64,000 bases of DNA, taken from positions 76,867,067 to 76,931,066 of the forward strand of contig OX359245.1 of NCBI GenBank assembly GCA_947179485.1, written 5' to 3'. The translations under genes and the position numbers were made by a program. Source of the stretch: Allacma fusca (Eukaryota > Arthropoda > Collembola > Symphypleona > Sminthuridae). The first letter of the stretch is position 1. Every line of letters begins with the position of its first letter. Shown here in pieces: positions 643 to 62,031 of this stretch. The notes beneath the pieces were generated by a model. It did not search any database and was not told where the DNA came from. It saw only the letters and a program-made list of their open reading frames with translations.

Positions 643-2628
643 CAGTGCTGCGGACAAGTTCAAGTAGTACTTGAGTTTTCAAGTCAAGTTCAAGTCCAGG
701 TCAAGTTCAAGTTCAAGTAGGTAATTTTTTTACTTGAGTCATTCGTGGCAAGTTCAAGTACGTACTAAGCTTGACCTTGACATTCTAAGACAAGTCAGGT
801 TCAAGTATACAAGTAAGACAAATTTACTTGAACCTCAAGTCAAGTTCAGGGTCAAGTACAGTCGACTTTCTTTATAAATGACATCAATAAATCTCCCAAA
901 AAGTGACATTCTAAGGGAACGACGTTATAGAGGCACATAAAATAAATAACGTTTTAATTGCAAATTTTTCGTTTTTAGTTAAATTGGACTCATGTCTCGT
1001 TTCTTTGCAGACATATAGCACATACTATATGTCTATGCAGAATGAGAATATAAATAGTTAGTATTAATTAATAAATAATCATATTTTTCAAAGTTTGCAA
1101 AGCCACAAACACCGTCAACAACAAAGGTCAGGATTGAATAAAGTATTTCCTAAATCTCAATAAGACACTTGTCAGATCATTTACAAAAGTTTTCAAACAG
1201 TGAAAAATGTAATTCCGTTAAAACTATGAATATCAGTTCTTTACTGGATGAGAAAATAAATATAAAAGCTTAGAAATGTAGATTTTACTGGATGGGACTT
1301 CGTCAATGTCGTTAACCAAGCTTGCACATATATTTACAATAATACGGTCCTTCCAGTCTTTTATAACGTCGCTTTATAATAATCCAATGCAATAATTATA
1401 ATGAAATTGAAGCGTAAACAAACTTTTAAATGACAGCACCAGTATCTTATTTAGCTAGGTTTGACGATTTGTCAACGTCAACATGACGTTATAAGGGTAC
1501 GTTTTTCAACTTACGGCTACAAAAAAGCGACTTTATAAAGGAACTGACGTTATAACGAGTGACGCTATAAAGGTAGAAATTATCATATAATGTAGCTTGG
1601 GAGGAACCCATGATGACTTTATAGGGGGAATACCTTTATAGGGAGAGACGCTATAAGGAGAGTCGACTGTAATGGAAAGAAAAAACTTGACCATGAACTT
1701 CAGATTTAATGGTCAAGTTCAAGTAATTTTAGATTGCGCATGCGATTAAGAACGGAAGTAATTTAAAAATCCCAAACCTATTTCATGTCATGTTCAGGGT
1801 ATTTTGTTTGCGCAAGTCAGAAATCAAGTCCATTTGATGAAGGTTTTGTTTGCCTGACGTTGCTCATTGTTAATTGTTGCAGCGGCATATCCATGAAATG
1901 AAAGAATTATCTTGATAATTCATGTTGTGGCTTATAATTATTAGTTTCAACTTCAACTTGTGTAAAAAACTTCCAGTATAAAATGAGCTTGGATGGCCCT
2001 TTACAAAAAGCATTTAATAAACAAGTAATACTAGTTTACTTTATTAATTATCAAGTTAAGAGTAATGGTAATGCTCAAATAGGTATATGTATATATACAT
2101 ACATGAACATTAAATAAAACTCAACACCATGTAATGCTCGTCAGATACACAGTGAAATTCCGTTATAAGAGTTCAGCTTATAAGGAATGTATCGATATCA
2201 GAAATGAATTTGTTTGATCCCAACTTTCATTTACACAAAGATTTAGACGTCCTCATAAGGGAAATTCATTCATAAATTGTACAGTCCCATATATCGGACT
2301 TTGACTTTATTCGGAATACGCTCAAGGATGTCTTCAAAGGGTTTTAAATAAAAATAGTAATTAGTCAAAGTGTTTTCTGAATAGGTTTGGTTTTCAAGTC
2401 AGGTTCAAGTCATGGTCAAGTCAAGTTCAAGTCAAGTTTGGAACTGTGGCTACTTGATCAAGTTGGGATCTTAAAAAATTTACTTGATTTTTTGAACTTG
2501 ATAAGTCAAGTAATTAAACGAACGCGAGTTATCAAGTTCAGGTTGTGTCTTGAAAATTACTTGAAGTTTCGTGGTCAAGTCAAGTTCATGGTCAAGCTTT
2601 GAAATTACTTGACCCGATCGCAGCACTG
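643..2628. mobile_element. Non-autonomous hAT-like element, CAAGT-word family, with nested pogo-like insert
   Basis: Ends are inverted repeats: CAGTGCTGCG at 643-652 and CGCAGCACTG at 2619-2628. It is flanked by an imperfect 8-bp duplication, GCACTGAC (635-642) and GCTTTGAC (2629-2636). The paralogous block near 36905-36920 has a single GCACTGAC followed directly by TAG, matching what follows the right end here, so that copy preserves the empty site. About 200 bp inside each end is packed with TCAAGT/ACTTGA words. No transposase is visible, so it must have been moved in trans. Frames such as 2387-2602 are translations of the word array and are not genes. Confidence 0.9.
859..1669. mobile_element. 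pogo/Tigger-like element nested in the hAT-like element
   Basis: Inverted ends CAGTCGACTTTC (859) and its complement ending GAGTCGACTG (1669) are flanked by TA on both sides (857-858, 1670-1671), the target of Tc1/mariner-pogo transposases. The interior contains many CTTTATA/ACGTTATA words, e.g. at 1540-1660. No transposase frame is visible. Confidence 0.75.
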
Positions 2629-2636
2629 GCTTTGAC

Positions 2637-3584: not shown

Positions 3585-4153
3585 CCCAGTCAGTCCAAAT
3601 ATATAGGATCTTATATGTAAAATCTACAGGATTAAAGTATGGGATATGCGGACGATATCTTAAATGATTCTACCATAGAAATCTATGCGATCATATGGGA
3701 TGTAATCTGATGCAGCATGAGAAATTGAAAATGCAAATCTGATGTTACTTGAGATTGTTCTTATAGGAAAATATAACCCATTGTCTGATGGGAATAACGT
3801 TACTGATGTATCCCGTGTGGCTATAATAAATTTCGGGTTTAAAAGTAAGCAAACCATGCAGCATAACGACATAACAACTTATAAAATTGTATTTATTCAC
3901 ACAGTTTAAATCATCACAAAAATTTAGACCGATTTTTAATTAGGATTTTTCAGAACTTTCAAAAGTTTTCTTGCATCGGAACAGATTCCACGAACACTGA
4001 ACTCAAATTTAATGAATGAAGCAGAACCTCTCTCTAAGCAGCATTCCTTTATCACGAACTCTAATAAAAAATCAGAATTACAAAAAAATAACCACAAGTT
4101 AGACAATACGTTAAAAATAATCTCAATTAAATCTGCATTCATAAAAAAGTTCT

Positions 4154-9061: not shown

Positions 9062-9581
9062 TCGTAACAAGTAATTCGATCTCGCCATTTAATAAAGTTA
9101 CTATAGTAAGTTCATTTGATATCATTCTGCCCATGAATTAAGAACATATAATATTTTCATTAATCCGAAATAATAAATACTTAGCAAAATTCGTATAATC
9201 TCGAAACCTATAAGATACTCACAACCACTTTCTCATGCTAAAATACAACAAGATCCTACGAGAAAAGTTCGGATTTGCGTTATTTTTTCTGTTTTTCTAT
9301 CCTATAGGAATCCAATAGTGTTTTTATGCTTGAGGTAGTATTCCCAATCTATAGGATTTTAATGAAAATGTCCTATAGTGCACCAGCTTGCGGGATGTGT
9401 GGCACCTAACGTATAGGATTTTGTAACAACTTCATATAGTCCTCTTGCTTATAAGATTCCCAGGCAAATTCTGACGAGCTGAATGATTTCTGCCAGATCC
9501 TGTATGACTTATGGGATTTCTGATACATTTTCTCACAGAACTTGTATCCTATAAGAAACCATACAGTTTCGAGTGACTGGG

Positions 9582-10085
9582 GTTCCCGCTTTTTCGCCTT
9601 CTTCAACGAATTTACCTTATGGAATGGAGTTTGTTTGAATCTGTGGAGCACATTTACTTCCCAAGCTGTATTTTTTTGCACTTTATTGGACTTCATTGAT
9701 TTTTCTGGAGGAAACCTATCTATTCTCTGGTATCATGGAAGAAATTTCTCAGACGCTTACAGAAGGTGGGTGTTTAATTTTGACTAAATATTTTAGTGTT
9801 ACAAGTCTCTTCCCTTATTTTCGCTTTACTAAAATTGCACACCACGAAATATTTCCATCAAATCATTATGATCAGTTTCTTTTTACCAATGCTAATTTTC
9901 AATTAAAAACATTTCAAAAATACTTATTTTATTACAAAATACATGGCAGGATCGTCCAATGATCTCTTGTCTCAGATCTTTTATTTTGTACCCATTAATG
10001 TTTTTGCTGAGTCCCTCAGCAAAATGTCTCCGGTTTTCTGTCAAGAGCCACAATTCAAATAAAGCCCATTCGCCCCATTTGCCTG
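9582..10085 (+). pseudogene. GR-like receptor body, continuation of the 3445 fragment
   Basis: Matches 33085-33165 followed directly by 34953-35445, so it also shows how the exon looks without the insertion present there. Readable blocks include TKYFSVTSLFPYFRFTKIAHH and a membrane segment near 9990. Frame changes and stops are frequent, and the last quarter, including the C-terminal exon, is absent. Confidence 0.75.
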
Positions 10086-11029: not shown

Positions 11030-14000
11030 TCATGGATTCAGGAGGTCATTTGTGGGTACATTTATTGCAGCCAAACTGAATGGGCGTAAGGCTTTTCCCT
11101 GCGGAGTTGTTTTCCAAAAATTCAAGCCCAAAAGTATGCCACACGCAAAGTAAATGCAGAGAAAAACCTGTGCCCCAATTCTGTAATGGAGAACTACGCC
11201 ACTGAAAAAAAAACAATGTGAATTAAATCTTAATATAAACCATTTAAGCTTGTATTACAATTTATTGTTTGGTTTCGAGTATAAGCAAACCCATATTAAG
11301 GAAATGATCAACTACTGAAGTAACTATACTTACTTAAACGACAACAAGTACAAGTCATAATTAATTAATTTGATTGATTATTGCTTAGAAAAGTGCCGTT
11401 GAAACGTGATAGTCAATTTGAATTAAAACGTTTATACTTTTAATAGTAAACGGATTGCAGATTGTTTGCAAATTAAAATATGAGAGTTTAAAACCATCAG
11501 TGTACTTACGAAGACTCTCTGAAAGTAAAAACTTCTCTGGCATTAGAGGAGACGGTTGTTGGTGCTGTTTGGTGTTCCCAACCATAGAGAATGTAATTTC
11601 GATAATCTGTCAGTTTCACGTCCAAGTAATTCACTAAATATATTTTCAGTAGTATAATTAAACTGCCAACTTTTTATCAGGGTGGCTGGATTTAAATCAC
11701 TCGATTTTTTCAAATAAATCATTGATTTAAATCAAAATTGACTTCTCAACTTTTTGCGGTTAGATTAAATTTAATTTTACGTCTCCAATTTTCGTAAAAT
11801 GTGCATTTTTGTTTTTACAAATTTTTGGCATGAGACCATTTAGGATTTTGATAATTTTCAGGATAATTTGGGTACGTTGACATATTGATTATCTGTCAAG
11901 AGCTCACAGTCCCATCAAATTTGGATATGAGTGGGTTTTCAAGTATCGTATAATACTAGAGCTTCTGCTGGGGATAATTGAAATGTTCCACAGAAGATTC
12001 CGTCTCGTTTCAAAATCCATTGACAAAAATTTGTGTTCGAATGCCGTCCCGAAATAACACCGGGGCAATATTTATCTGTATATCCCGAAATTGTCTCGTC
12101 CCTAACAGAAACTACAAAAACATCCCAATATCCCATCTTTCTAAAAGAGTACTGTTTAAAGTGGCAAGGTTTGACTGTGTGGATTTTGCATTTCTTTAAT
12201 GTTATACTTTTGTACGAAGAGATATTCACACTTGTTTAAACAATATATTCCCAATGTGGATATAATTTTTCTGTCCCAACATATTCTACCATCCCGTCCC
12301 GAAACATTGTATTTGTACATACTATACATACACATTTTGTATAATGTGTATCGTGAATAAAAATAATAAAAATCCAAATGAGACAGTCGGATTCTGTCCT
12401 ACACAGCGTTTGACTTCAAAAACAAAACTGAATTCGAAATTGTTACAATATAAGAAATACTGTTGATCTTTGGAATTGTCCTTTAACCAGCTTTTTACTT
12501 CATATTAGGTAGTTGGCTTGCCTTTGAAACTTTCTCTCAATACATTCTATTGATTGTTCAAGTTTCATTGGTGCCAACAGTGTACAATATTATTAGGAAA
12601 ATTAAAATCCAAATATTCGTATGGAAATTCTCTCGTACGGTAAAATGTTGAATTTATATCATAAAATATTGATTTAAATAAAAACAATCCGATTTAAATC
12701 AAAAAAATCAGCAACCCTGCATTTTATAGACTAAAATAATACAACCCTTGGATACAGTTTTTAAAAAATAAGTTTCGTTCTGTTCCAGATGTAATAGGCA
12801 GCTCACAATATCACTACAAAAGAAATTGTACAAGTACGGAACTCACAAAGCGACATCTGTCACAATTTGAAGGATAACTCTGCATATCGACTATGTATTG
12901 CAATGATAATAAAATTTGGCTTCAGGGACAAATGTCGTGGAGTTTGTTTAGTAGAGCTACCGTTACCTTCACATGGTATGATATTATTTTGATTTTAAAT
13001 TCATTTTAACACATGACCTTATTTGGAGCCGTACTGATTCTTAAACTAACGACTAAACATAACTCCACGAGTTTATAACTTTAAAACGTAGTTTCAAACG
13101 TGAACGAGAATTTGACTCGAGAATTTTCTTCAAGGAGAGTTAGAGAGTGCGTATGCTTCTAATTTATTTCGATATACATTTAATTTATTTAAAAATGACC
13201 AATAGACTTCTGGAAAGCAATTCTAAATAGGCAATATACATGGCGGGGTATCCTGCGGCCTGATTGTTTTGTAAAAATTAGCAAGATCCTTGAATTAGGA
13301 TTAGCATTAGAATATATTCTAATGTTTAAATAGCATGCAATTATCAAATTAACAACTTAACCGGGGTATACACAAAGGCTTTTCAATTTACCTATTTCAA
13401 CGACCATGGCCAAATCATTTGGAACATTCGCTGCAATTTGTTCAATAGTTTTACGATTGAAACTCCTTCCTTTGACAGGCGAATGTAAAGAACTCAGCCA
13501 TATCTGCGCAGCAGATGGTTTTGGAGTTGTGATTATTAATTGAATTAAATTTTAAGACTAATAAATTGAGAACCAGCTTTTCTATAGAACTGTCAGGCTT
13601 TATTATGTCAGGTGTAAATTTTAATATCCCTGATTCTTTGTCATATTACTTCGTTTGCTTTGTTAAAATAACTTATACACACTTGTGGCTATTACATCAC
13701 AATTCTATTGCCCCGAGCGTTGTTAAACGTTTGGGTTTAACTACAGAAAATAGAAAGCATTTATACTTCCATCAACCAATGGTCTAAGCCAAGAAGAGAT
13801 GGAGTGGAGATTCTGTGAACGCTTTTACTAGTATCTCGAAACCCAATATTTATATGTTCCATGTGTTCATGGTAGTTCAGGAACTGTCATATTCAAGTAT
13901 GTACATACGTCCGAAATTATGGAAATGCTTGAGTTTCAATTTCGGGGAAGTTCAAGGTCAATTCTGCCATTTACGTAAACAACGGACTGAAGTGAATTAG

Positions 14001-15484
14001 AAACAAATATTTCAAAGCAATTAGATGCAGTGTAAATATATTGTGAAATAGTTATTCAACATGATTAGCTCTGGCCAAAAATTAAGACATTTGTATCCCA
14101 AGATATTTTGCAAAGTCCTGAAATATCTCAAATGCAGGTGTCGGATTTTTGTAAATCTCCCTGGAAGATTTTTTCATTTTCCCTGCTGGTCATGATGTCC
14201 CTGTTCGAAGCAAGTTTAAAACTCCCTGTTGACAAAATATTTTTCGTAATACACCCCAACAAATTTGAAAATCCCTGCTGACAAAAAATCATTTTCGTAA
14301 ATCACCTCAACAATTTCGAAAATCCCTGTGGACAAAAATCATTTCGTAAATCACCTCAACAATTTAGAAAATCCCTGTGGACAAAAATCATTTTCAGTAA
14401 AACACCTCAATAATTTCGAAAATCCCTGCCAAAAAAGGTCAACAGATTTGAAAATCCCATTTTAAAATCCCGTTTGAAAATTTCCCTGCTGAAACATTTT
14501 TTTCCCTGCGAAGATTCTACCCGTCTTCCAACATAAATCCGACTCCTGCTCAAATGTTGTATAAAATCTCTTTTGATCGATATCTAATGATTAGTATTAA
14601 AATAGCTCATACTTTTTTCCAGAGGCTTGTGCATGGGAGCTTTCACAAGGCTGTTTTTCTCCAAGATGTCCAACCGTTTGCTAAATCTCGCCGACGCAGA
14701 TTCAATTAATTCTTTCAGTTCATGGGTGCCGTTTTGATAACTCTCTTGCAGTCGTTTGAGAAATACATCATTGGATTCTGCGATTTGCACGGATTTTGAT
14801 AATTTAATTAATATTCGTTGGCAAGCAAGTATATGTTACCACACAAAACCAGGTACTCATATTGGTTTGATTGACTTAAGCCAATCAAATTGCTCGAATC
14901 AAAAGATTTTGCTCGTAAGTATTCCTAAGCCGTTGTTAAAAATATTCTCCTTTCAAAATGAGTCCTTCCAATTTTGTGTAAAACATAAATAATGACTTAT
15001 TAGCAAAACGTTTTCCAACAATCAAAAGTATCTCTCAAATCAGAAGAATTACAATTGATTTTCAAAATATTCTTTAACGCAATTTTTTGGAAAATTTATA
15101 GGCTTTCAAACAAGATGTCTGATTGTTCCTTGCATTAAGAATTTTTGATCGTAAAATCCAAACAATATTCGACTTCAAAATATGAAGGGGAAAATTTAGG
15201 AGGAAGAAGAGAATCTTCAATTGAAATATTAAGCAAGTTGTAAAAAATATTTACAATAAAAATAACTGACTAAGTGAAATTTACGACCTCAGTACACTTA
15301 AACGTGTGGAAAGATTTTGATATATTTGAAAATGTTATTTCAAACAATCATAGTCGTGCCAATCGTAAGCTTTCACAGATTCTATGGTTCCTTCCGAATT
15401 TAAGTTGTCCACAATTGAGAGAGTGGTAGAACAGCATTGTAGAAGAAACACCAATGAAAGTACTTTCCAAATCGTGTTTCCCAT
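11030..15484 (-). CDS. Unrecognised single-pass membrane protein, at least six exons
   Basis: Reconstructed on the complement from phase-matched splice sites. Exon 1 (15484-15377) starts MGNTIWKVLSLVFLLQCC, a clear signal peptide. Exon 2 (14924-14840) has flanking AG and GTAACA. Exon 3 (14777-14613) is a charged helix, FLKRLQESYQNGTHELKELI. A later exon (13503-13392) includes KTIEQIAANVPNDLAMVVEI. The next (11606-11510) reads DYRNYILYGWEHQTAPTTV and ends at GTAAGT. The last (11201-11030) has a membrane span, AQVFLCIYFACGILLGL, and a short tail ending TGA. Phases agree for exons 1-2, 2-3, 13503-11606 and 11606-11201. They disagree between 14613 and 13503, so at least one exon there is missing or damaged. 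Two hAT-like elements lie in introns. Topology suggests a secretory-pathway type I protein; I do not recognise the family. Confidence 0.55.
11678..12719. mobile_element. Non-autonomous hAT-like element, GATTTAAATC-word family
   Basis: Ends CAGGGTGGCTG (11678) and, on the complement, CAGGGTTGCTG (12719) match 10 of 11 bases. Flanks CTTTTTAT (11670-11677) and CATTTTAT (12720-12727) are a 7-of-8 target duplication. GATTTAAATC palindromic words fill the first and last 100 bp. It lies in an intron of the complement-strand gene at 11030-15484. The centre carries a different word array (next entry). Confidence 0.8.
11940..12310 (-). repeat. CCCGTCCC-word repeat, remnant of another element inside the hAT
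   Basis: Contains CCGTCCCGAAAT, ATCCCGAAATTGTC and CATCCCGTCCCGAAAC words. On the complement it is homologous to 42495-42690 (shared AGAAGCTCTAGT and GACGGAATC). It is probably a separate insertion within the 11678-12719 element; exact ends were not found. Confidence 0.55.
12728..13391. other. Intronic sequence, nothing recognised
   Basis: Lies between two proposed exons of the complement-strand membrane-protein gene. No repeat ends or coding blocks are supported. Confidence 0.4.
14135..14548. mobile_element. Non-autonomous hAT-like MITE, CCCTG-word family, copy 1
   Basis: Inverted ends CAGGTGTCGGATTTTTGT (14135) and, on the complement, CAGGAGTCGGATTTATGT (14548). Perfect 8-bp duplication CTCAAATG at 14127-14134 and 14549-14556. 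The interior is a degenerate tandem array of a roughly 60-bp unit, AATCCCTG.(T/G)GACAAAAATC. Relatives are at 38757-39137 and 43050-43252. It is in an intron of the complement-strand gene. Confidence 0.9.
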
Positions 15485-15599
15485 TTTTAACAAGTGATAC
15501 ATTTTCTGATATCTTTGAAATACATGGGTACAAGTCCAGAGTTGGCAAGCGTGTAAGAGGATCTAATACTATTTTTTGTTTTTATAGATATACATATAT

Positions 15600-16478
15600 A
15601 GTGTTTGTCAATTTTTAAATGCGCTGGGTATTTTGCTTGCTCGGTATTTTTTGCCAGCAGGAAGGCAAAAAAGCAATATATGCCTTCACAAATAAATGCA
15701 CGGAAAAAAGGCAAAACAAGATTAGCAAAAATTATGACAAAACAAATCTACTTTTGTGGGGCATGTTGAGATGCAATATTGTACCAAGAGAAAATCAAAC
15801 CTGTCAAGCAGATTCAACAACAATGAATACGATTTAATCGGGTTCATATGCATCGCTGAATTGTTCAAACGCTTCCAAAACTTGTAGTCTTGAATTGTTG
15901 GAATCTTTACCGAATTGTCTTTTAATATCAACTGAAGCGTGCGTGCACGTGGATGTCTGCCTTGAATATTTAACTGCATGCTTTCTTTGAACGTTACCAC
16001 AAAAATTACATTTTCCATTACAGGTTTCAGAACTTGCATTTGAAAATGAGGTCCAGTGTAACCGGATTTTATTTTCTGGTCGTCCCTCGTTTTGGTTTAC
16101 ATTTACCTGGGAGTAAGATACGATGGCGATAAGCCAAAGAAAATTAAAATAAAACAAAAAAATTTATGCTCACAGAATGTTCAATATGCAATGAGATGAG
16201 TTTTGGCTTGCTACTACGTGCAATGAGAAACCAGTACTTTGCAAGTTTTGCATATTCTAAAATTAGCCACGGTCGGAGCATGCACCAATGATGGTGGAAA
16301 TAGAGCGTTCCATGAGCATCGTTAATTTATGGTAAGGAAAAATATATTATAAGCCAATTCTGCCAGAATGGCATAAAAAATTATTTTATGCCCATGTGAA
16401 TAAAAGCCCTAAATGCCTGCCACATATGCTTGCCTAATTTGCCATTTACGCCATGGCATTTAAAAAACGACAAACCCT
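15600..16478. mobile_element. hAT-like element with GGCA/TGCC words and a possible degraded zinc-finger frame
   Basis: Ends AGTGTTTGTCAATTTTTAAA (15600) and the complement of AAAAAACGACAAACCCT (16478) are an imperfect inverted repeat. Flanks ACATATAT (15592-15599) and AGATATAT (16479-16486) agree at 7 of 8. Subterminal GGCAA/TGCC words are dense at 15640-15710 and 16360-16460. A complement frame at 15834-16157 contains CNGKCNFCGNVQRKH, which may be a worn BED-type finger of a transposase; this is weak. Confidence 0.65.
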
Positions 16479-16486
16479 AGATATAT

Positions 16487-17050: not shown

Positions 17051-17310
17051 ATGTCTCTTGCAGTGCTCGGACTGGGTACGGGTAATACTCGGGTAAATGG
17101 GTACTACCCGGAACAGGTATGGGTACTACCCTGGTACAGAAGTTGCGTACTCACAAGTACGCGGGTACTACCCGGGTACATACTCTGGATTTTATACAAT
17201 AAAATGGGTACATGTATGGGTACTCACTCAGTGACAATCAGGTATTACCCAAAAGATATGGGTATCACTATATAAAATGTATGTACCCATGGTTGCTGTA
17301 CCCGAGTATT
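17051..17310. repeat. GGGTAC-word array, probable truncated hAT element
   Basis: Begins CAGTGCTCGGACTGGGTAC, a plausible hAT left end, followed by many GGGTAC/GTACCC words. No matching right end was found. The two frames here (17024-17275, 17212-17451) are word-array translations and not genes. Confidence 0.5.
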
Positions 17311-18639
17311 TTTGTGTACTTCTATGATTCCTACTGGGGTCGATTAGTATGGCTAACAATAAGACCTGCCAACCTTAAAATTGCTTGTTTCTTTAAAACA
17401 GATACATGCTTTAGTAATACAGTCAAGTGGCTTCCTTTCATTTATGATTAAGTGGTCGTTGCAATCTAACGCGTCTAATGTTTCCTCTCAAGAATCTAGT
17501 AAAGAAAAAGCGTAGATCGCCAGTTTATCGAATTAAACAATGAAGATCATCAAAAAAGAATTTTAATGGGCAGATTCTTAAGATTAAATTTAATTAGGCT
17601 CATTGAAATTATTTTAGGACGTATTATGAGATAAATTGTGAATAAATAGGTACACATTTGTTAGCTTTAAACCAGATCCTTTTGATATTGCTAGAACTAC
17701 CCAGGGTTGCACATTTCAAAACGGCGAGGGATTTTGTGCAGACAATTTGAGCATTTTCAGTCGTGGGCATTTATAACACTTTGAAAATTTATTGCAGTGA
17801 ATATTTATAAAATTTTAGAATGAAAAATATCATTTCATGCAAGCATTATTTCTATTTCAGTCCCTTTGATTATTGCTGATAATTTTGATGTTAAAAGAGG
17901 AGTCATCTAAACTGGGCATTCAAAACTCTCATAGGGCTGCATTTGAGTCTATTTTCGCCTGCATTGGTCAAAAATTCGCAGGCTCCATTAATGTTAGAAA
18001 GTTTATGAATGTTTGTTCTATAATGTAATATAAAATTAATATTAAATCTTGCCTCCCACTCCCTGAAACCACGATAATCGACTTGGAAAAATGATGATCA
18101 ACTCAAATCAATCCGTATAATATTTTCTGCACACAGTATTCAATTCTATTGTTTTGTAAATATGTACTTTGATGGAAAAACTGGCATGGTCGGGAAATTC
18201 TACTTGCCTCCTATACTTTACTAATCTTGCGTCGTATATGTACGATAATGTCAACAGTTATTGACATCGGAATTGTGTTAAAAGATATTTGGGAAAACGA
18301 TAAGCCGGGAACACAATTGTTTCATGTTTACGAAGTTGAAAAGCAAGTTTTCGCTTATGGAGAGTTTAGTGTTAAATTCGTCCCAATTGGTTGTCCTTCC
18401 ACCATACAAGAATTATTGTTCATTCAGCAAGTAATTATTCTGGCACAGTAGCATTTGAATTTATTAAGTGTTTACTAAAAATACATCATAAATGACATGA
18501 AATGATTTTTAAACAATCTGAAGTGGATATTCTTAACACCTACGGAGAATTCCCAAAACCCCGGGCATTTTTAATGGAGGTCAAAAAATGGACAAATTAA
18601 ACATTTGCAGCTGGAATGACAAATGTCTTCGGGGATTTT
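17311..18639. other. Spacer; one unassigned exon-like frame at 18227-18451
   Basis: Mostly featureless. On the plus strand 18248-18430 reads as plausible protein (VIDIGIVLKDIWENDKPG, then FSVKFVPIGCPSTI) and could be an exon with a donor at CAA/GTAATT (near 18429). It lies upstream of the IR pseudogene at 19046, and a ligand-lobe piece of that receptor is possible. No homology could be shown by eye. Confidence 0.25.
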
Positions 18640-18649
18640 CAATCAGCGA

Positions 18650-18830
18650 AACTTCCAGTACTCGAGTAATAACCGGGTACAAACAATATGTACTCGGGTA
18701 CGGGTACAGGTTTTGGGTACTTTACGGGTGGGGGTAAATTATGGGTACAGGTACTACATTGTAGCATCAAGTATAGGTACGGGTACAGCAATTATTTACC
18801 CGGGTACACGGGCATAGCAACTGTCCTAAA
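18650..18830. repeat. GGGTAC-word array, second truncated copy
   Basis: Starts near CCAGTACTCGAGTAATAACC and continues with GGGTACGGGTACAGG-type words in the same orientation as 17051-17310, so the two are separate left-end fragments and not one element's two ends. Confidence 0.5.
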
Positions 18831-43986: not shown

Positions 43987-44426
43987 TGTTGAGAAGTGAA
44001 ATGGCATAGTTTTGCTACTGTGTAGCAGTAGTAATTGTTACTGCTATTAGTTTTAATTGAAGAAAGTGACATTATTTTATTTAGCTATTTTTGTCATTTC
44101 TAAGTTATTTGACAATAGCAAAAGTATTGAATATTACTTTCATAGTAATAATTGTAATGCATGTATTATGAAATGTAGCATAGCAAGCTTATGTAATGTA
44201 TTACTGCATTGATCTGGTTAAGATGCAATGATGACTAACGTTTGTAACAGAATGCACTAAGACACGGAACTGTTAGCATCTCAATAAATACTCTTGTTAA
44301 TCTCTAGAATAGTAATTCTTGTATTCGGGCAAGTCAATTACTTAATTACAAGTGCAACCAATAACGTTCATAGTAAATCAAATTACATCGGGATTTTACT
44401 ATTTATCAGTCACACACACCTCATCA
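43987..44426 (+). repeat. 5' LTR of the BEL/Pao element
   Basis: TGTTGAG...CCTCATCA, 440 bp. AATAAATACTCTTG near 44284 may serve as the polyadenylation signal. Confidence 0.92.
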
Positions 44427-44493
44427 TTTGGTCCGTCGAGCCGGATAGAGTTTGAATCATTTTTACTGAGGAGATATTGTGGTGACTGACATT

Positions 44494-46284
44494 ATGGATT
44501 CCCTGATTGCAAGAAGAAAGTTGGTGAAGTCCAAGTTAACAAGAGTAAAGGCTAAGGTTGATCATGAGAATGCGCAACTGTGGAATGCGGCTACAGCTGG
44601 GGTCTATGATCAACAAATTACGGATATGTGGAAGGACTTCAATTCATTATTTGAAGAAATTATGTCTTCATGCCCGGAGCAGGAGGAGGAAGTACATCTT
44701 CAACAGTATGATGAAATAGCGGATAGGTTCGATGAAGTTAAGGTGGCAGTGAAGCGCATCATCGGAAGGATGTCAGGCACTGAACCTCAAGCATCGAAAA
44801 GGAGGATGTCGGCTGATGGAGCGTCGGAGCATGCTGTTACGGTGAAGCTGCCAAAGCTGGAGACGCCAACATTTTCTGGTAGTATGTTGGAGTGGACTTC
44901 ATTCAGGGACCTATTTATGTCAAGTATTCATAACCATCCGACACTTAGGGGCGCAGAGAAATTAAGTTATCTCAAAGGTTGTCTGAAGGGAAGTCCAGCA
45001 GAATTGTTGCAGCCGTTTTCAATTTCTGATGCCAATTATGAAGAAGCATGGGCCACATTAAATCGAAGATACCATAACACGCGTGAGTTAATTAAAACTC
45101 ATTTAAATCGACTAATCGATATGCCTATTCTGGAAAGAGAATCAGGAATCGAGTTGCGGAGTATGGTGGACATTGCTTCATCGATAGCGAGAGCATTAAG
45201 GGCACTGGAAAGGCCAATTGATGAAGATAGTGACTTGGCAATGTTGCTCATTACTACAAAGTTGGACAACGAAACTCATAAGTTGTGGGGAACCAAAATT
45301 GGGCGGGAGAGAATTCCGAAGATGGCGGAGCTGATTGAGTTTCTGGATGATCGTGCTGTTATTCTGTGCTCATCGGAATTTGGAAAGAAGTTGCCAATCA
45401 GTGAAACTATGCCGGAAAAGCAGCAGGGGAGCAGTAAGAAAATTGTACATGCTCATCATACAAATACCAATGCTTGCTGTCTATTATGCTCAAGTAAGGA
45501 GCGCATGATTGGGGACTGCGAAGCATTTCTGAAAATGACGGTTGCAGACAGAAGGTCAAAGGTAGTAGAATTGAAGTTATGCTACAAATGCATGCGAGCG
45601 GGTCATTTGGCAACGAAGTGTTTTAGCAGTACAACATGCAGCATTTGTCAAGGAGCTCATCACTCACTTTTACACATACGGAGGAATTCTGGAAGTGAGG
45701 TTAGAACAGAATCGGTAACAACACATATTGGCATTAGTTCTGAATTTTCAACATCAAAGAAGGGATTGATGGCTACTACAGTGATTGCTGTTGAAGATGG
45801 TAAAGGAAGATTGCAAGAATTCAGAGCACTCCTTGACCCAGGCTCCGATGTTAGTTTTGTTTCGGAGAGAGCAGCAAAATCGTTGAAGTTAGAACGGAAG
45901 ATTTGTGATGTTAATATTTCTGGAGTCGGAGAATCGAAAGCGGGAAGTTCCAATTCTGCGGTCACACTTGGATTAAGATCGAACCAAGACGATGATTTCG
46001 AGATGAAAGTCAATGCATACATTCTTCCTAAGGTTACAACGATGTTACCGAAGCGAAAGGTTTATGAAGATGAAGTAAGCCATTTAAGAGGCTTGCCTTT
46101 AGCAGATCCTGGATTTATGGTACCCGGATACATTGATATACTTTTGAGGGCTGATGTATTTTTCGATGTTATGAGATGTGGAAGAGTAACTGGAGCAAAG
46201 GGTAACCCAATCGGACTATTGACTGTGTGTGGTTATGCAATCGGAGGAATATGTCCATCACAATCAATTGAATGCATCAATTGA
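44494..46284 (+). CDS. BEL/Pao gag-protease polyprotein
   Basis: 596 aa from ATG 44494; the five codons upstream have no better ATG. Residues 1-110 are an N-terminal helical region (RKLVKSKLTRVKAKV). About 120-290 is the DUF1759-type gag core (LPKLETPTFSGSMLEWTSF, then EKLSYLKGCLKGSPAELL). Near 370-400 are two zinc knuckles, CYKCMRAGHLATKC and CSICQGAHHSLLH. From about 440 to 590 is the retropepsin-like domain (DUF1758), ending LLTVCGYAIGG. The expected D(S/T)G of the protease reads DPG in ALLDPGSDVSFVS, which may lower or abolish activity. The frame is intact and stops where the polymerase should follow. It would package RNA in cytoplasmic particles. Confidence 0.92.
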   Translation: MDSLIARRKLVKSKLTRVKAKVDHENAQLWNAATAGVYDQQITDMWKDFNSLFEEIMSSCPEQEEEVHLQQYDEIADRFDEVKVAVKRIIGRMSGTEPQASKRRMSADGASEHAVTVKLPKLETPTFSGSMLEWTSFRDLFMSSIHNHPTLRGAEKLSYLKGCLKGSPAELLQPFSISDANYEEAWATLNRRYHNTRELIKTHLNRLIDMPILERESGIELRSMVDIASSIARALRALERPIDEDSDLAMLLITTKLDNETHKLWGTKIGRERIPKMAELIEFLDDRAVILCSSEFGKKLPISETMPEKQQGSSKKIVHAHHTNTNACCLLCSSKERMIGDCEAFLKMTVADRRSKVVELKLCYKCMRAGHLATKCFSSTTCSICQGAHHSLLHIRRNSGSEVRTESVTTHIGISSEFSTSKKGLMATTVIAVEDGKGRLQEFRALLDPGSDVSFVSERAAKSLKLERKICDVNISGVGESKAGSSNSAVTLGLRSNQDDDFEMKVNAYILPKVTTMLPKRKVYEDEVSHLRGLPLADPGFMVPGYIDILLRADVFFDVMRCGRVTGAKGNPIGLLTVCGYAIGGICPSQSIECIN

Positions 46285-46361
46285 ATCAATTTTATCGGAG
46301 TGACCAATTTTATTTCACGATGGGCGGTAGTGTTAAAATAGTTATTTCAAGATGGGCGGAA

Positions 46362-46801
46362 TGTTGAGAAGTGAAATGGCATAGTTTTGCTACTGTGTAG
46401 CAGTAGTAATTGTTACTGCTATTAGTTTTAATTGAAGAAAGTGACATTATTTTATTTAGCTATTTTTGTCATTTCTAAGTTATTTGACAATAGCAAAAGT
46501 ATTGAATATTACTTTCATAGTAATAATTGTAATGCATGTATTATGAAATGTAGCATAGCAAGCTTATGTAATGTATTACTGCATTGATCTGGTTAAGATG
46601 CAATGATGACTAACGTTTGTAACAGAATGCATTAAGACACGGAACTGTTAGCATCTCAATAAATACTCTTGTTAATCTCTAGAATAGTAATTCTTGTATT
46701 CGGGCAAGTCAATTACTTAATTACAAGTGCAACCAATAACGTTCATAGTAAATCAAATTACATCGGGATTTTACTATTTATCAGTCACACACACCTCAAC
46801 A
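46362..46801 (+). repeat. 3' LTR of the BEL/Pao element
   Basis: Same length as the 5' LTR and nearly identical (one internal C/T change and one change three bases from the end). Confidence 0.92.
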
Positions 46802-51600: not shown

Positions 51601-51659
51601 AGTCCGGTTGCATCACAACTTTAATTAACTTTAGGATTGTAGTATTTCTTTATGTAGTA

Positions 51660-54418: not shown

Positions 54419-55267
54419 TAGTGGTCCCAAACTTTCAATTCTGAATCAAAAAAACTCGATTTGATTCGATTCAGTTCAATTCTGATTCATCATTTTTCGA
54501 TTCAATTCAAAGCATGAAATGAATCATTTCATTCAATTTACTTCATGAATGAAATCACGCGAAATGCCTTGAATCACGATTCAAATCATTCACTTGCAAC
54601 GAATTTGTTTGCATATCACGCTAAAAATGCAGCTAGTAACGCATCACATTAAAAATTTCGTACGTGTTTCTGAGAGACATTTTTGATTTTTGTTGGGAAA
54701 CCGACTTATCAATTACTTTGTAAATAATAATTTTTAAACATGAAATACATCAATTATTATAATTTATTATTACAGCATTTACTAACCGTCCAATTTAGAT
54801 CATAATGTGACAATTAATTAGCAGGATATGCAACTCGAATTTGCTAAAGTTACAGTCAACTCTCGCTATAATCGATGCACAATTTGCAAAATTTGTCCCT
54901 TCTGACCATAGTGTTATACGTTGTGTAAATGGGAATCGGGACTGGAAATCCCAATCCCTTATAAGGGTATCCCTTATAGCGAGAGTACACTGTATTGACA
55001 ATTTTAGCGATAGTGAAATTTTTTGAATTATAATCTTTCGCGGTTTTATGTAGTCATTGTAAAATCCTTAAATAAAATGTTTATGTTACCACCTTTTACT
55101 GTCTGAATGATTTGAATCATCATTCGATTCAATTCAGCACGCAGAAATGAATCAAAGTGAATCCTGTGAATCGTGAATTGAATCGAATCATTGAATTTCA
55201 TTCAGTTCATAATTTGAATTTAATCAAAACGAATTTTTTGAATTGAATTGAAAGATTGGGACCACTA
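54419..55267. mobile_element. Non-autonomous hAT-like element, GATTCAATTC-word family, with nested pogo-like MITE
   Basis: Ends TAGTGGTCCCAAACTTTCAA (54419) and, on the complement, TAGTGGTCCCAATCTTTCAA (55267). Flanks AAGGGAAA (54411-54418) and AAGGGAAT (55268-55275) agree at 7 of 8. GAATCAAATCATTC-type words fill both arms. No transposase. Confidence 0.88.
54853..54992. mobile_element. pogo-like MITE, 140 bp, inside the hAT-like element
   Basis: Ends CAGTCAACTCTCGCTATAA (54853) and, on the complement, CAGTGTACTCTCGCTATAA (54992), TA on both sides. Confidence 0.82.
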
Positions 55268-56863
55268 AAGGGAATGTGTGGAGCCTAAATTCTTATAATT
55301 TATACTTTTCAAAAAATTTCCGGACGTTAAGCATAATTATACTAATACTAGCACAGTCAGCTATTTACAACCCTCGATACTTACATTTGCCGTCCGGAAC
55401 TAGTGCTAGTGCTTATTATAAGTTACTATAGTGATATATACAGACTGTATCGAACTTGGATGAAAAAAAGAAATTCTATGCCCGTGATAAAACTTCTGAA
55501 TCATTATAGGGTACTGTGGGGGGTGAGTATTTGACTCATCTCTCACCTCAAGTTACTCCTTTTGATCCCGTACGACTCACAGCCTTAGAGTTCCACGTAA
55601 TGTTTGTGTTTCAACAAAGCCACAACCACAAATCCTTACCATTATTTTTAGGATTGTTGTCATTTGATGTGACAATTCAGAGATGCGCATCCGCATATTC
55701 GTTACGTTACATTACACTATTACTATGGGTTTTAAAACTGACGTTAATTATCATTACATTACTAAATATCGTATGAAAAATTCATCGCTACCGTTCTGTT
55801 ACTACAAAACAACCGTAATACTCCAGCGTTAGTTTTCGTTACCATTAAAAAATATAAAATAGCCGTTACTTTCCGTTATTGCTATTATTATTGTCCGCTA
55901 GTTATAAACTAAATTATCAAACATCTAGTGACACCAGACCTTCCTGGTAAGCTAGAATTGCGGCCAAAAGCAATTAAAGTTTCTCTGCAGTTCTTGGTTC
56001 ACCTGAAATGTGATCCACTTCCCGACTACCAAATATGGTAATCTCGTCATTTGACCTATGTATATTGAAATTTATTTTTCTAATTTAACTAGCGACCGAA
56101 TTCTCCACGATTGGTTTTTATCTACTAAAACCATTGGTAGAACCAAAGCTTAATTCGTAAGCCGATCACACATCCTTTTTTGTGAGCAAAATCATGTGTA
56201 TTATGCAAGCGAAAGGGCCAACAATTTCCTATGGAAATTCACCATGTTTTCAATAATGTACATAAATGACGATCAGGGTGTTCACATCCAACTGAAGTTT
56301 TTATCATATCCCCCGTTTACTTACATGCGCAAGTTATTCGAAACAAATCCAACAACATAGCGTTTTCTGTTTACATACGCTTAAACGTTATAGTTATTCC
56401 CACAAAAGTTTAGCACACCCTACCCATGTAGCACGAAAAAACTCAAACACGTAAATATTTGGTGCATTTAAGGTGCACATTCGTCACGTTATTAGATTTA
56501 CTTAAAATAAACGTAAAATAAACAGACGCATTTTCCCGTAAAGAACGTGTACAATAATTTACGTTAATTTCACGTGTAAAATTAACCTACTCAGTATCCA
56601 ACAGTTTCTCCCCTACTGGCGAGATTTTGTAACAATTTTTAAAGTAGAATGCGGGGCAAGTCTTTATTATTCCGGCGTGGCTGCAAAGCAATGTGATTTC
56701 TCGTCCATCTTTCTGGTAATGGTTTAGAGTTGCTTCCTTTCCGAAACGTGAGAAATTCAGTGATTGCAGAAACGATTTTTGACAGGTAATTGTAAAATTT
56801 CCATTTATTCGTTATCACTATTAGATTACAATAGAGTAAATTGTGTCATGCAAGCCGATTCAA

Positions 56864-58801
56864 ATGAGCAGAAAGTATAGTTCCAGACATCTTCGTCGAT
56901 TAGCAGCCAGACATGCACAAGACTGCGCGTACTTAATTCGGGAACAAGAAGCTCCATTGTTTAATAATTTATCTCGAAATACTTACTATAATGTCAGCAT
57001 TGAAAGTGCTCCTGGTGAACACGAATTTGTGACTTACTATGGAGATAAACATTTACTTGATAATGTATCTACTGAAGACACCAGACCTTCAGCAATCTCA
57101 AAAGAAGCCACATTTTTGAAGAATTTGAAAGCGTGGACTTTGGAAGAACGTGTGTCTCACAAATGTCTGTCTAAATTATTGAAAATTATTAAGCAAGACC
57201 TTGGGTTTACAGAAGTAGCTACGGACGCACGTACCTTTTTAGGAACTCCAAGACAATCAAAAGTGCACGAAGTTACACCAGGTGTGTACATACATATTGG
57301 TTTGACAGATGGAATTATTAAACAAATTAGTGACCTCGATGAAGATGTCAGTAAAGTAAAGCTTGATTTAAGTATTGATGGTCTTCCGCTTAGAAAAAGC
57401 TCAAATAGCCAGTTGTGGCCAATTCAATGCCGCGTTGTCAGTGACAATGCCGAACCATTTGTGGTAGGTATATACCATGGATATAATAAACCAGCTAACT
57501 GTTCCGATTACCTACGGTGTTTTGTTGATGAAGCTAAATTTGTTTTAACTAATGGCATACAAGTCAACACGAAAAATGTTTGTGTTAAATTACGAGCTAT
57601 TATTGCTGATGCTACTGCTAGATCGTTCATTACGAATACTGTAGGGCACACAGGCTATTCTGCCTGCAGTAAATGTGATCAGAAAGGCCAATACAGCAAC
57701 CGAAGAGTAGTATTTGCATCAGAAATTGGAAACATTCGTACGGATGAGTCAATCAAGCAATTGCAATACCCTGAGTTTTACTCAGGGGGCAGTATTTTAG
57801 AAGAAATTGGAGTTGGATTAACATCGCAGGTACCTTACGAGTACATGCACTTGGTGCTTCTTGGAGCAACTAAAAAGTTACTAAACCTATGGGCACACAG
57901 TAAAAGTTTCAAAGGTAGACTCAGTAGACTCCAATTGATACAGATTTCTAAGCACCTTCTCACAACACGCAAATATGTTACGACTGACTTTCAGCGAAAA
58001 CCAAGAACACTTACTGAATTAGCAAGATGGAAATGCACGGAGCTAAGATTATTTTTACTGTATTTATCACCTGTTGTTCTGCGAAAAATTCTTACCACGG
58101 ACTATTATGAACATTTTATGTGTTTCCAGATAGCTATTTTCATATTGTGCCATTCGGAATTATTTAAGGATTATAAATCTTACGCCCAGACTCTTCTCGA
58201 ATATTTTGTTGGACAGTTCCAAAACTTCTACGGCTACGAACAATTATCGTTTAATATTCATGGACTTTTGCATTTAGTGTCTGACTGCGAAAACTTGGGA
58301 ACTTTAGATGCATTTAGTGCTTTTCCCTATGAAAACAATTTGCAAAAAATTAAAAAGCTTGTTAGGGGTCATTCAAAACCGGCGCAACAGATTTACAAAA
58401 GACTTGAAGAAATCCACTCCAGCAAACAGTTGAAATTGGCTACGAATTTCAGTGAAATTCCCGTATTAAGCAACGACAACAAGAGAATTACATTCCAAAC
58501 ATTTTCACTTAAGAGTAATATTCCCGATAATTTCTGCATGCTATCATGCGGCAAAATTATGGAAATACTGTCATTTGGGGAACTAAACAATGTTATGGTT
58601 GCCAAAGGACGGGATTACAAAGAACCGGAGGATTTATATAAGCGACCATGCAAATCCAGTGATTTAGGGATATCACAATTTTCTTGGAAAAACTTTGTGG
58701 AAATTACCGTTCCGGTCACAGATATAAAATCTAAACTTATGGTAGTTACTTACAAGACTGAATATTTTGTGTGCATTCCAGTTCTACATATATCAAAATG
58801 A
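56864..58801 (+). CDS. CACTA/EnSpm-like transposase, 645 aa, intact
   Basis: Start chosen at ATG 56864 (CAAATGA context). The basic N-terminus SRKYSSRHLRRLAARHA may contact DNA. KLDLSIDGLPLRKSSNSQLW (around residue 175) carries the probable first catalytic Asp. IIADATARSFI, equivalent to the usual DAPAR motif, may hold the second. GHTGYSACSKCDQKGQYSNR is a zinc-binding-like insert. YEYMHLVLLGATKKLLNLW is the signature MHL..LG helix. Near the C-terminal third, LSFNIHGLLHLVSDCENLG and FPYENNLQKIKKLVRG are the block in which the third acidic residue is expected. It would cut and rejoin the element's ends. The broken relative at 6208 shares these blocks. Catalytic residues are proposed by pattern and not proven. 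Confidence 0.85.
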   Translation: MSRKYSSRHLRRLAARHAQDCAYLIREQEAPLFNNLSRNTYYNVSIESAPGEHEFVTYYGDKHLLDNVSTEDTRPSAISKEATFLKNLKAWTLEERVSHKCLSKLLKIIKQDLGFTEVATDARTFLGTPRQSKVHEVTPGVYIHIGLTDGIIKQISDLDEDVSKVKLDLSIDGLPLRKSSNSQLWPIQCRVVSDNAEPFVVGIYHGYNKPANCSDYLRCFVDEAKFVLTNGIQVNTKNVCVKLRAIIADATARSFITNTVGHTGYSACSKCDQKGQYSNRRVVFASEIGNIRTDESIKQLQYPEFYSGGSILEEIGVGLTSQVPYEYMHLVLLGATKKLLNLWAHSKSFKGRLSRLQLIQISKHLLTTRKYVTTDFQRKPRTLTELARWKCTELRLFLLYLSPVVLRKILTTDYYEHFMCFQIAIFILCHSELFKDYKSYAQTLLEYFVGQFQNFYGYEQLSFNIHGLLHLVSDCENLGTLDAFSAFPYENNLQKIKKLVRGHSKPAQQIYKRLEEIHSSKQLKLATNFSEIPVLSNDNKRITFQTFSLKSNIPDNFCMLSCGKIMEILSFGELNNVMVAKGRDYKEPEDLYKRPCKSSDLGISQFSWKNFVEITVPVTDIKSKLMVVTYKTEYFVCIPVLHISK

Positions 58802-61094
58802 ACTATTGGGTTGTTATTACTGAACGTTGTGAAGGAGAAGAAGTTACACCCGTTCCTGAGCTGTGGATGGGTCCAGAGAAAACGACATGCTTCTGGCCGA
58901 CTAAGCTCTCTCCACAAGCAATAAGTACTGCTATTAATAAAGGCGTGAAACCAGGTCAGGATTGGGATGAGCACATCATTATAAAAAAATATGGCCCATA
59001 TAGTAAGTTTGTATTATTGCAATATTTTGAATTAAAATTTAATTCAATTGATTATATATTGTTAGTAAATGTCAAAACGTTCCACATGCACTTCCGATTT
59101 GAGAAGTCCTCTACATGTATATGTATACAATGGAAAGTGGGCCAAATTGAATCTTCGGCAAATGCAAATTGGTACATACAGTTTTTACTTTCAGCAAAAT
59201 GACCAGATGAAATTTTATTTAAAATATGTGCGTAAAACGTTTTGCTATTAGTGAAAACTGCATGTGGGTCCTTTGGATTTGAATATGGCCCACCCCTATG
59301 TTGGAAACTGAAAAGTTGGAATTTCTTTACCATAGTTGGAATTTAAATTATTTCTATTCATTAAAGAAACTTGCCTTGAAGCTAGGCAAAAGTCCAGTCG
59401 CGTAGTGAATAAAAAATCTAAAAGCAGCATGGACGAATGTGACACGCCCCGAAAAAGAACAATCCCAAACAAACTGAATGACTTTGTTCAACCAGCCGCG
59501 AAGAAAATGAAACGTGCAGCTCCTAATCAAGAAAGTCCTAACAGCAACACTGGACCACCATTTCCAGCGTCTTTGCCCAGCAAACCCCTCCAAGCACCAT
59601 TTGGTATTCACAATCCTAATGTTGTCGCAACGACTACGACAGTGACATCCCCGCAAGCATTCACTGAGAATCGTTCTACTGGTAAATACATATAAGTATT
59701 TGTTTCCAATAAAATATTGGTGGTTTACACTAAAAAATTCATTTAAGATCTCCATGGTATGTAAACAGTGCAAACGTTATTTTAATAAATAAATAATATT
59801 TAATTTATGTAAAATATGTTTTAATATATGAATAATATTTATTTTAGGAATATTTAATTCTTTGACTTTTAGATCTCACCAGCTTTGAAAAAATGGTTTT
59901 AGCTGGAATTTCGGTGATCAAAGTTAGACTTTCAACCATTGAGGAAACTCAGACTATGATCTTGCAGCAGCTGAACACAATTAATGGGACCGTTGAAAAA
60001 TCTTCAAGGCCGCATAGGACAGTAAAATTACCTGTGGAGTCCTTGGCAGAGCTGCGAGAACTGGACAGCAAAATTAGTGCCTCCCCAGATACATACACGG
60101 AACTAGTAATGAAATCATAGAAACACTTAAAATAAATATATGAAATATATGAGAAATTATTGCGTATTTCAAACTAGTGCCTTCAACATTACTTATTTTT
60201 GAATTAGGTGAAAGCTTTTGAGTGGCTAATAACATCGGATATTCGTGAATCTACTTATACCATTCTGAGGAAATTAATGGTTGATGTTGTAGCTCAAAAC
60301 CTGAACTGGAAAGGGAGGCACGGCAAAACTCCTTTTGGACAGTTTGAATTGTCTACTCTGATAACTGGTAATATTTTATCATTGCAAAATTTTTAAATGG
60401 TTGTAGTTACATATTAAGTAGGATTGCTGTCACCAAAATGTTTTTACCCGCAATTCATTCCGTTGCCTACATCACTTATGAAACTAATTTGGATATCGTA
60501 AAATACTTATTACGGGAGTTTCTGCCCTGACTTCAATTTTTGTAACTTTTGCTAGGCAAGTATACCTGCCGTATATTGCATACACCGGCTTTGAGGTGGT
60601 TTAATTACTAACAAGGTTTTTCATAGTGAACTTACAATTTGCATAATTTAAAAAATTAAACTGTAGGCTAATACCATAATTTAATCATTATAATCAGCTT
60701 CAGTTACATGTAAAGAATAATAAACTTACAATCATCAGTTTATTTTTCTTTCAGTAAAATTTTATTCAGCTCAACTGAATGTATTTTTTTTCCAGAAACT
60801 GTCAATTTCCGCTTCGGGACGAAAAATGGGAATGAAAAACTCATTCAGAAAGCAATTAAAAATTGGTTGAAAGCTGCCAAAAATCGAATGAAACCGTAAG
60901 CAACAACAAAATGTTTTCTTTAGTATTCAAAAAATACTCGTAGCATTTATTATAATAATAAATAATTAAGCTAATGGAGAATCGTAAATTAAAATAATTT
61001 CAGGACTTCCCTACGTCCAGTTGCTACGGCAAGTTACATCTCAGACCCTTCAGCAGTGGGTGCGGATTCTGATAGCGACACGGACTCAAATTAA
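58798..61094 (+). CDS. DUF4806-domain accessory protein of the transposon, six exons, 367 aa
   Basis: ATG 58798 overlaps the transposase stop as ATGA. Predicted exons 58798-59002, 59367-59681, 59873-60105, 60208-60367, 60796-60895 and 61004-61094 sum to 1104 bases, exactly 368 codons with the stop, and every junction keeps frame. The N-terminal module NYWVVITERCEGEEVTPVPE with CFWPTK and YGPY is the usual opening of this family. A basic/proline linker follows (residues about 75-175). The DUF4806 domain has LPVESLAELRELDSKI, LRKLMVDVVAQNLNWKGRHG and QKAIKNWLKAAKNRMKP. An acidic tail ends SDSDTDSN. Role is unknown; a partner or DNA-targeting function for the transposase is inferred. The donor of exon 3 (GTAATG) is the weakest. 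Confidence 0.8.
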
Positions 61095-62031
61095 CAACAC
61101 ATCGTTTTTTATCAGTTTTGTATTTGTGATTACATACATTTCCGATGTAGCAATAGATGTTCATATGCTTCTAGGGAAGTGGTCGGATTTATTCTTACTT
61201 TAATCATTTTGTTATTCCATTTTTACAAATGTAAATCTTTTACACGGGTGTTGTCGTCTTGATTGCATAAACATGACTATTTTATTATTACATTTTATTT
61301 TTGGAGCACTGATTTGCAATTACATAAGTTATGCACATATTGGGGAAGCAAACTTTCACCCTCGCGCACGTTTAACGAAGACGTTCGCGAAACGCTTGTT
61401 TTAGGTTTCGCATTTCACGCAAATGTTACGTAAAATTATTTACGTTACGAAGCCCGGACATTGTCGCGTGCATTTCACTACAAATTTACCATTCACTTAC
61501 CAATTTAACGCGTCAAAAAAGCGTCTAGTTTACGTTATTTCGTTTCCATGAATACGTGAATTTGACGTAAATTAATGGTCTTTGTGCTACATGGGTAGTT
61601 CCGTCACGCTATTGAATTCAACGTATATAGGCCGTTACGTTAAAAAACGGCGTTATTGTTGGGTAAAAGTAACGTAACGGGCGCATCACTGTGTGACATC
61701 AATAAATATCACTTATCTGGAGTCGGTGGAATCGCAACCATGCTTTTCTCAATCGGTACAAATGTTTTGCTGTACCCGAAAAGCTACTGATTAAGCTGTT
61801 TATTCCTTTTTAATTCCAGAATACTCTACATATATTGAATCCACAGTAATTCAAGTGTTTGAGACCCTTCCGAATATTTAATTCCTAACCATTTTCTTTG
61901 AATGGTGGGGAAATCAGACAACATCTCCAATAAAATGTCAAATCCTCATAGCAATGTTTACATTATAGAACAGTGGGCATTCCTATGCACGGCGTGGGAT
62001 AAACGACCCCATGAATAGCACTCAATAATGG

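Follow-up and report, generated by a model that had tools for sequence, protein, structure and literature searches.

The DNA window analysed here, 64,000 nucleotides of the collembolan Allacma fusca (contig OX359245.1, called C1 below), contains elements that are mainly non-autonomous transposons of the hAT superfamily, and in nine families of these the terminal arms are crowded with copies of one short word. For the families F6 (word CATACAT), F7 (CTCGTACTTG) and F9 (GGTTCAGGT), the genome searched (393 Mb in 91 contigs) contains transposase-bearing hATs that share their tips, arms and words and are called their partners here. Because in these three families the same word stands at the ends of a larger transposase-bearing element, the words are most likely docking sites of the enzyme, and it is very probable that the arrays as a whole are transposase-binding sites of the type described for Ac and Herves. 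Repeated subterminal sites for transposase are a known principle, which is found here in unusual variety, with many families carrying different words in one genome. As many transposases are thereby paired with candidate sites, the choice of DNA by the BED zinc finger becomes testable by ordinary binding assays, and, given the variety of words, the same assays can ask whether transposon families become isolated when their word changes.

The reality of the word arrays was checked in two ways. The window was cut into 425 overlapping 300-bp slices without using the list of an earlier sequence-only reading (the original prediction), and slices in which a non-trivial 6-mer occurred at least six times were counted. 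There were 32 such slices, whereas each of ten dinucleotide-shuffled versions of the window had 0-1; elements named in the original prediction account for 26 of the 32, and two further word-rich stretches, at 21151-21450 (ATTCGA, 7 copies) and 9151-9600 (CCTATA, 6 copies), were outside its list. When both arms of each element were compared with 100 dinucleotide shuffles, the top word was reached by none of them for F1 (TCAAGT), F3 (CAGGGA, or AAAATC in copy F3c), F5 (GGGTAC), F6 (CATACA), F7 (AAGTAC), F8 (AGTCTA), F9 (GGTTCA) and F11 (GATTCA), and by one for F2 (GATTTA). The top 6-mer had 8-29 copies over two arms of up to 300 bp, and 5 in the 203-bp F3b. The words of F4 (GGCA, 25 of 100 shuffles as high) and of the CGTTAC element (31 of 100) were not above chance, and the GGGACGGGAC (GGGAC) fragment was marginal (5 of 100); of the words listed originally, the arrays of nine families stand. 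The elements are given below by their positions in the window, with no strand assigned.

643-2628: F1, TCAAGT element; tips CAGTGCTGCG; flanks alike at 6 of 8 bases; nested insertion at 859-1669.
11678-12719: F2, GATTTAAATC element; duplication 7/8.
14135-14548: F3c, copy of the CCCTG family; exact duplication CTCAAATG; words scored with bounds 14137-14549.
15599-16479: F4, GGCA element as proposed; tips TAGTGTTTGTC/TAGGGTTTGTC; no duplication; word at chance level.
17061-18823: F5, two GGGTAC arms; tips alike in part only; no duplication.
23861-24428: F6, CATACAT element; exact duplication TTCACAGC; partner at C1:54877666.
25347-26765: F7, CTCGTACTTG element; exact duplication CCCCAGTG; partner in L043.
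38757-39137: F3a, copy of the CCCTG family; exact duplication TCTGCAGG.
39285-41841: F8, CTAGTCAAGT element; exact duplication CTTTATAT; host of F9.
41095-41789: F9, GGTTCAGGT element nested in F8; exact duplication TAGTCAAG; internal deletion of an L045-type hAT.
42490-42650: GGGAC-rich fragment, marginal (5 of 100 shuffles).
43050-43252: F3b, short copy of the CCCTG family; duplication 7/8.
54419-55267: F11, GATTCAATTC element; duplication 7/8.
55678-61691: CGTTAC element of about 0.84 kb, split by an insertion at about 56423-61600; word at chance level.

This map corrects the original one in several places. The CCCTG arrays are three copies of one family (F3a, F3b and F3c); the two CGTTAC arrays belong to a single element (55678-61691), whose arms are parted by a 5.2-kb insertion; and TCAAGT marks one element (643-2628) interrupted by an unrelated insertion of about 811 bp with other ends. 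F9 was inserted within the word array of F8, and its duplication TAGTCAAG is a piece of the F8 word.

The assignment to hAT was supported by target-site duplications, tips and domains. The 8-bp duplication is exact at six elements (F3a, F3c, F6, F7, F8 and F9) and agrees at 7/8 bases in F2, F3b and F11, which bears out, for these nine elements, the duplications claimed originally; F1 reaches 6/8, and no recognisable 8-bp duplication was found at the flanks of F4, F5 and the CGTTAC element. The terminal inverted repeats are from 11 to at least 18 bp long in F7, F8 and F9 and imperfect in F1, F2, F3, F6 and F11. CACTA/EnSpm transposons have a 3-bp duplication and CACTA-type ends; membership in that group was rejected as the duplications are 8 bp, and F8, which starts with CACTG, has an exact 8-bp duplication. 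The hAT dimerisation domain (PF05699) was hit within the partner of F6 and the F9 partner L045, and the Pfam zf-BED domain (PF02892) was found in three of five N-terminal pieces, joined across an inferred intron, with E values of 4.7e-12, 1.6e-8 and 3.2e-11.

The partners of the window families were named transposase-bearing rather than autonomous, as the intactness of the gene is not part of this label. The F7 partner in L043, obtained by pairing F7 ends, is 5846 bp long and flanked by the duplication AGAGTGAC; both its arms carry the F7 words, and its hAT-like gene is split. The F9 partners L045 and L046, also from paired ends, have duplications TTTCACCG and ATGTTGTT, and L045 holds the scored PF05699 hit; F9 itself matches two parts of a transposase-bearing element of 4094 bp, bases 1-266 at 94.7% identity and bases 3667-4094 at 89.3%. 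The F6 partner (C1:54877666), which came from retrieving the 3' arms of 40 hAT loci and inspecting 14 of them by eye, is 3665 bp long, ends in the F6 tip and has duplication CTCGAGAC. The absence of the words from autonomous relatives had been named at the outset as what would speak against binding sites; where this was checked, for F6, F7 and F9, the partners do carry the words. When eight hAT loci were extended upstream, six proved to have an exact duplication and tips that agree at 11-12 of 12 bases, and the ends were not found for the other two (C8:49035862 and C8:70607745) nor for L039, L040 and L042. Six more transposase-bearing hATs with defined ends likewise had arms rich in words.

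Some first readings of loci were rejected. L047, taken up as a possible partner of F11 since an F11 end was close to a hAT hit, is a different hAT with ATCCGA words lying beside an F11 copy; the search for ends of its own found none, and a slice of fixed length supplied its two arms. L041 is no CACTAC transposase element, since its inner hAT (duplication GCTAGTAG, word ATAACG) is nested in an outer CACTAC element. In L044, which lies between two F7 ends, no transposase was recognised in frames of at least 120 amino acids (aa), one frame of 154 aa having no assigned identity. Two neighbourhoods of hATs were recorded besides: next to a hAT of L052 with the end CAAAGATGGGCAAC stands, at about 840-1010, another end, which looks related to F11 and has the words TAGTAGTCGG and AATCGAATC, and a tandem array containing AAACGTTTCGAGACCCATTGG adjoins the hAT of L081 at about 540-740.

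The families are spread over the genome. Among the 17 listed copies of F7, 16 have perfect 8-bp duplications, all distinct, and L014 was not judgeable from its match. The end patterns matched (forward + reverse) 63 + 64 times for F7 (exact), 497 + 505 for F9 (up to 2 mismatches), 232 + 222 for F11 (2), 1974 + 2004 for F3 (2), 187 + 160 for F1 (1) and 75 + 74 for F2 (1), counts that give no ranking of families since the stringencies were unequal and some patterns fit one end only. The control patterns gave 0 for F7, F9, F11 and F1, 13 + 10 for F3 and 1 + 0 for F2.

The words are confined to the ends and specific to the family. In nine transposase-bearing element families with exact 8-bp duplications, the arm word was reached by 0 of 100 shuffles. 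At nine transposase loci (one of them, L041, being the nested composite) the top word lay, bar strays, in the terminal 300-400 bp, and the middle had 0-0.08 copies per 100 bp. A 9 × 9 matrix of words against elements was near diagonal. Its largest off-diagonal entries are 9, for CGGATA in the AACCGA element, and 12, for CGAGTA in L043, and both join related transposases (62% and 59% domain identity). This matrix and the recurrence of the same words in the partners of F6, F7 and F9 uphold the family-specific words of the original prediction. The hAT L005 carries in its 3' flank CACTAC, the same word as that of the outer element at L041.

The conservation of the words was measured between each window copy and its partner by comparing the columns in the three top words with the other arm columns, tips excluded, and by repeating the comparison with 400 random k-mer sets. 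In 300-bp arms, word columns diverged by 11.6 vs 27.4% for other columns in F7, 9.0 vs 20.4% in F6 and 2.8 vs 15.1% in F9, and 9, 9 and 2 of the 400 random sets, respectively, were as low. With 240-bp arms the corresponding numbers (F7, F6, F9) were 38, 4 and 1, and with 200-bp arms 59, 9 and 4.

The words were also related to the enzymes. The identity of the dimerisation domain correlated with the similarity of the 5-mer spectrum of the 3' arm (r 0.51, p 0.0002, 17 families); a second run, in which the arms of L041 and L081 were re-cut by eye and L042 was added, gave r 0.58 (p 0.0001, 18 families), and without L078, L047 and L061 it was r 0.43 (p 0.0003, 15 families). Fairly close enzymes can nevertheless have unlike words, as seen for GGTTCA vs AGTACG and CCTTCA vs AAGGCA, each at 59% domain identity.

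The orientation of the words differed from the mirror arrangement claimed originally. Among 17 elements the dominant strand of the word was the same in both arms in 13, opposite only in F2 and F11 and tied in two, and all seven strongly strand-biased elements were of the same-strand kind. Elements of the type of miniature inverted-repeat transposable elements, whose arms are inverted copies of each other, were rejected on the same ground, as mirror-image arms do not go with one strand in 13/17. The same-strand order means that, viewed from the tips, the sites at the two ends face opposite directions. Helical phasing of the words, suggested at first by a single phase bin (of five) that took 70 of 202 spacings, was later rejected: the 10.5-bp signal of same-strand pairs, tandem-array families excluded, was 0.122 (6 permilles of jittered sets as high) and so did not exceed that of other recurrent k-mers of the same arms (0.112) to any extent that counts, and over all pairs it was 0.065 (p 0.078).

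The words were compared with sites of known hAT systems, as given in the passages of the papers cited here. Subterminal sites of hAT elements bind the transposase, through an N-terminal zinc finger where this was studied, and the motifs vary by element (PMC3260210; PMC3143072; PMC10368747; PMC8097297). Nine published or derived motifs were sought in 17 elements (153 cells); a cell passed if the motif occurred three or more times and no more than 2 of 200 shuffles reached its number, and ten of the cells did. AAGT (Hermes) was enriched in F1, F8 and L043. F11 was enriched in GATTCA, which forms the centre of the Herves motif, and the inner hAT of L041 in two Ac motifs, AAACGG and AACGG. CGG was enriched in four elements, L043 and those with the words CGGATA, AACCGA and ATCCGA. 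As the motifs were picked after the words had been seen, these matches are support and not proof.

In maize, Ac/Ds elements make 8-bp duplications, and the terminal 200 bp contain multiple AAACGG hexamers to which the transposase binds cooperatively; the derivatives include Ds-del, with an internal deletion, and Ds2, with filler (PMC3260210). F9 resembles Ds-del and F7 resembles Ds2, the difference being that here many families with unlike words stand in one genome. In Herves of Anopheles gambiae, C[G/A]ATTCAT is repeated at both ends and is critical and sufficient for transposase binding, and the authors state that the sites vary between hAT elements, ensuring specificity (PMC3143072). The F11 word contains GATTCA; the Herves text cited has several repeats, whereas the arrays here have 8-29 copies of the top 6-mer in two arms. 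The BED finger of Hermes binds AAG(T/C), with 17 and 14 occurrences in the two ends (PMC10368747). F1, F8 and L043 share its AAGT enrichment, and they belong to a set in which one strand usually dominates both arms, unlike Hermes, where STR2-7 of the left end are antisense and STR1-5 of the right end sense (PMC10368747). When putative inner BED sites of the Hermes left end were mutated about 70% of the activity was left, and scrambling the region abolished it (PMC10368747), so not every repeat need matter. The hAT-derived CGG-binding proteins have diverse motifs, and for four proteins encoded by hATs the motif is matched in the subterminal part of the respective element model (PMC8097297). The CGG-enriched CGGATA, AACCGA and ATCCGA elements recall these, although those motifs were measured on proteins and the words here were read from element arms. 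The statement of the original prediction that no described system matches was thus mistaken, as Ac/Ds, Herves and Hermes, in the passages cited, have repeated subterminal transposase-binding motifs that are unlike between hAT elements. Among the papers listed by searches of the open-licence PMC literature, none was recognised as describing a comparable collection of hAT families, each with its own word, within a single genome.

On the binding-site explanation, the arms of each family would be an array of the site bound by its own transposase, most likely through the N-terminal BED zinc finger. With many sites per end, a multimeric transposase could bind cooperatively and select the ends of its own family before cutting at the short inverted tips. 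Such binding, cooperativity and mobilisation are inferred for the present elements. Non-autonomous copies would retain their arms because only copies still gripped by the enzyme keep moving, and their interior would be free to be deleted, as in F9, or replaced by unrelated filler, as in F7. Words would be unlike between families if the binding domain and its sites change together. A further step, which is possible and on balance rather doubtful, is that the genome holds a radiation of private transposase-site pairs, in which each hAT family has its own word, mostly on one strand through both ends, and families with similar tips (e.g. CAAAGCTGGGC/CATACA vs CAGTCATGGGCA/AAGGCA) no longer cross-mobilise. 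If this were true, the arms would be a natural record of BED-finger specificity, and the recognition code could be read across dozens of families.

Several results weigh against binding sites as the general explanation. In a crude screen of the 3' arms of 55 loci, no more than 18, from 12 of the 32 families formed at 70% identity, had a word reached by 0 of 60 shuffles; the arms were not delimited, so true elements were possibly missed, and dense words may not be universal among hAT loci. The conservation is weakest for F7, given the 38 and 59 of 400 random sets in the shorter arms, and closer pairs had no significant word conservation (F11 copies 8.5 vs 12.0%, p 0.30; F7 vs L029 5.2 vs 7.3%, p 0.38). 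Several arm pairs align, also after the removals, so common descent contributes to the correlation of word and enzyme. No partner was found for F1, F2, F3, F8, F11 and the CGTTAC element among the matches listed or among one-end matches, the end-pattern search for F1 and F2 giving single ends only and F5 not having been searched. The hAT domain of L043 was recognised from its translation and from 59% identity to a PF05699 hit, with no profile hit, and in the other two N-terminal pieces zf-BED had no match (F6 partner) or stayed below the cut-off at 0.055 (C9:2573675).

The arrays could instead be by-products of mutation, built by slippage or unequal exchange like microsatellites or satellites and with no role in binding. 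Tandem Repeats Finder did report arrays in F1, F2, F3, F5 and F8, among them one of F8 in which a 20-mer is perfectly repeated 5.5 times and one of F3 with units of 51 bp, but gave no row in F6, F7, F9 and F11, whose words are irregularly spaced. As the same word also recurs in both arms, is nearly absent from mid-element, is common to the transposase-bearing partner and diverges more slowly in three pairs, such an origin is very unlikely. The original prediction had joined to its binding sites a runaway amplification, in which non-autonomous families multiply the sites and outcompete each other and the autonomous copies for transposase. The words shared with the partners of F6, F7 and F9 suggest that the binding-site half was right. 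For the other half speak the very high density of sites, such as 29 TCAAGT-type 6-mers in the two arms of F1, and a word coverage in 250-bp arms slightly above that of the partner in all three window copies (F7 0.354 vs 0.330, F6 0.300 vs 0.248, F9 0.290 vs 0.254). The counts of the three top words in these arms are, however, nearly equal between window copy and partner (39 vs 40, 34 vs 30 and 42 vs 37, in the same order), the arms of partner and derivative are homologous, and arrays are as dense in transposase-bearing elements, with up to 28 copies of one 6-mer. With near-equal counts and a slight excess of coverage, runaway amplification and competition are not supported, and we hold them to be slightly more improbable than mutational by-products.

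The words might also act at the level of RNA or transcription, for example in promoting, splicing or silencing the transposase gene. Such a role would account for their orientation on one dominant strand in 13 of 17 elements. Gene-less derivatives, however, have equal word density, the words stand at both extremes and not around the gene, and several match published DNA-binding motifs of transposases; this was judged the least probable of the alternatives.

Other features of the window were noted alongside. Diverged direct repeats overlapping long frames at 3135, 19946, 24504, 29263 and 37509 are perhaps a tandem gene family, the frames tried having no Pfam match at E 0.001. At this threshold eight of nine window frames were without a family, and in a search up to E 1 two frames gave no match. 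The insertion of about 811 bp in F1 (859-1669) has ends CAGTCGACT, TA flanks and at least 39 relatives at 86-92% identity. The 5.2-kb insertion in the CGTTAC element (56423-61600), with ends CCCATGTAGCAC and copies at C1:27785253 (99%) and C8:34482903 (95%), is presumably akin to CACTA-type transposons; its 653-aa frame (56840-58801) gave a weak match to DUF4218 at E 0.077, below the cut-off. A 604-aa frame at 44470-46284 matches DUF1759 (E 2.4e-33) and, weakly, an aspartyl protease; two identical 300-bp direct repeats enclose it, and the whole (43987-46661) looks like a Pao-type long terminal repeat element.

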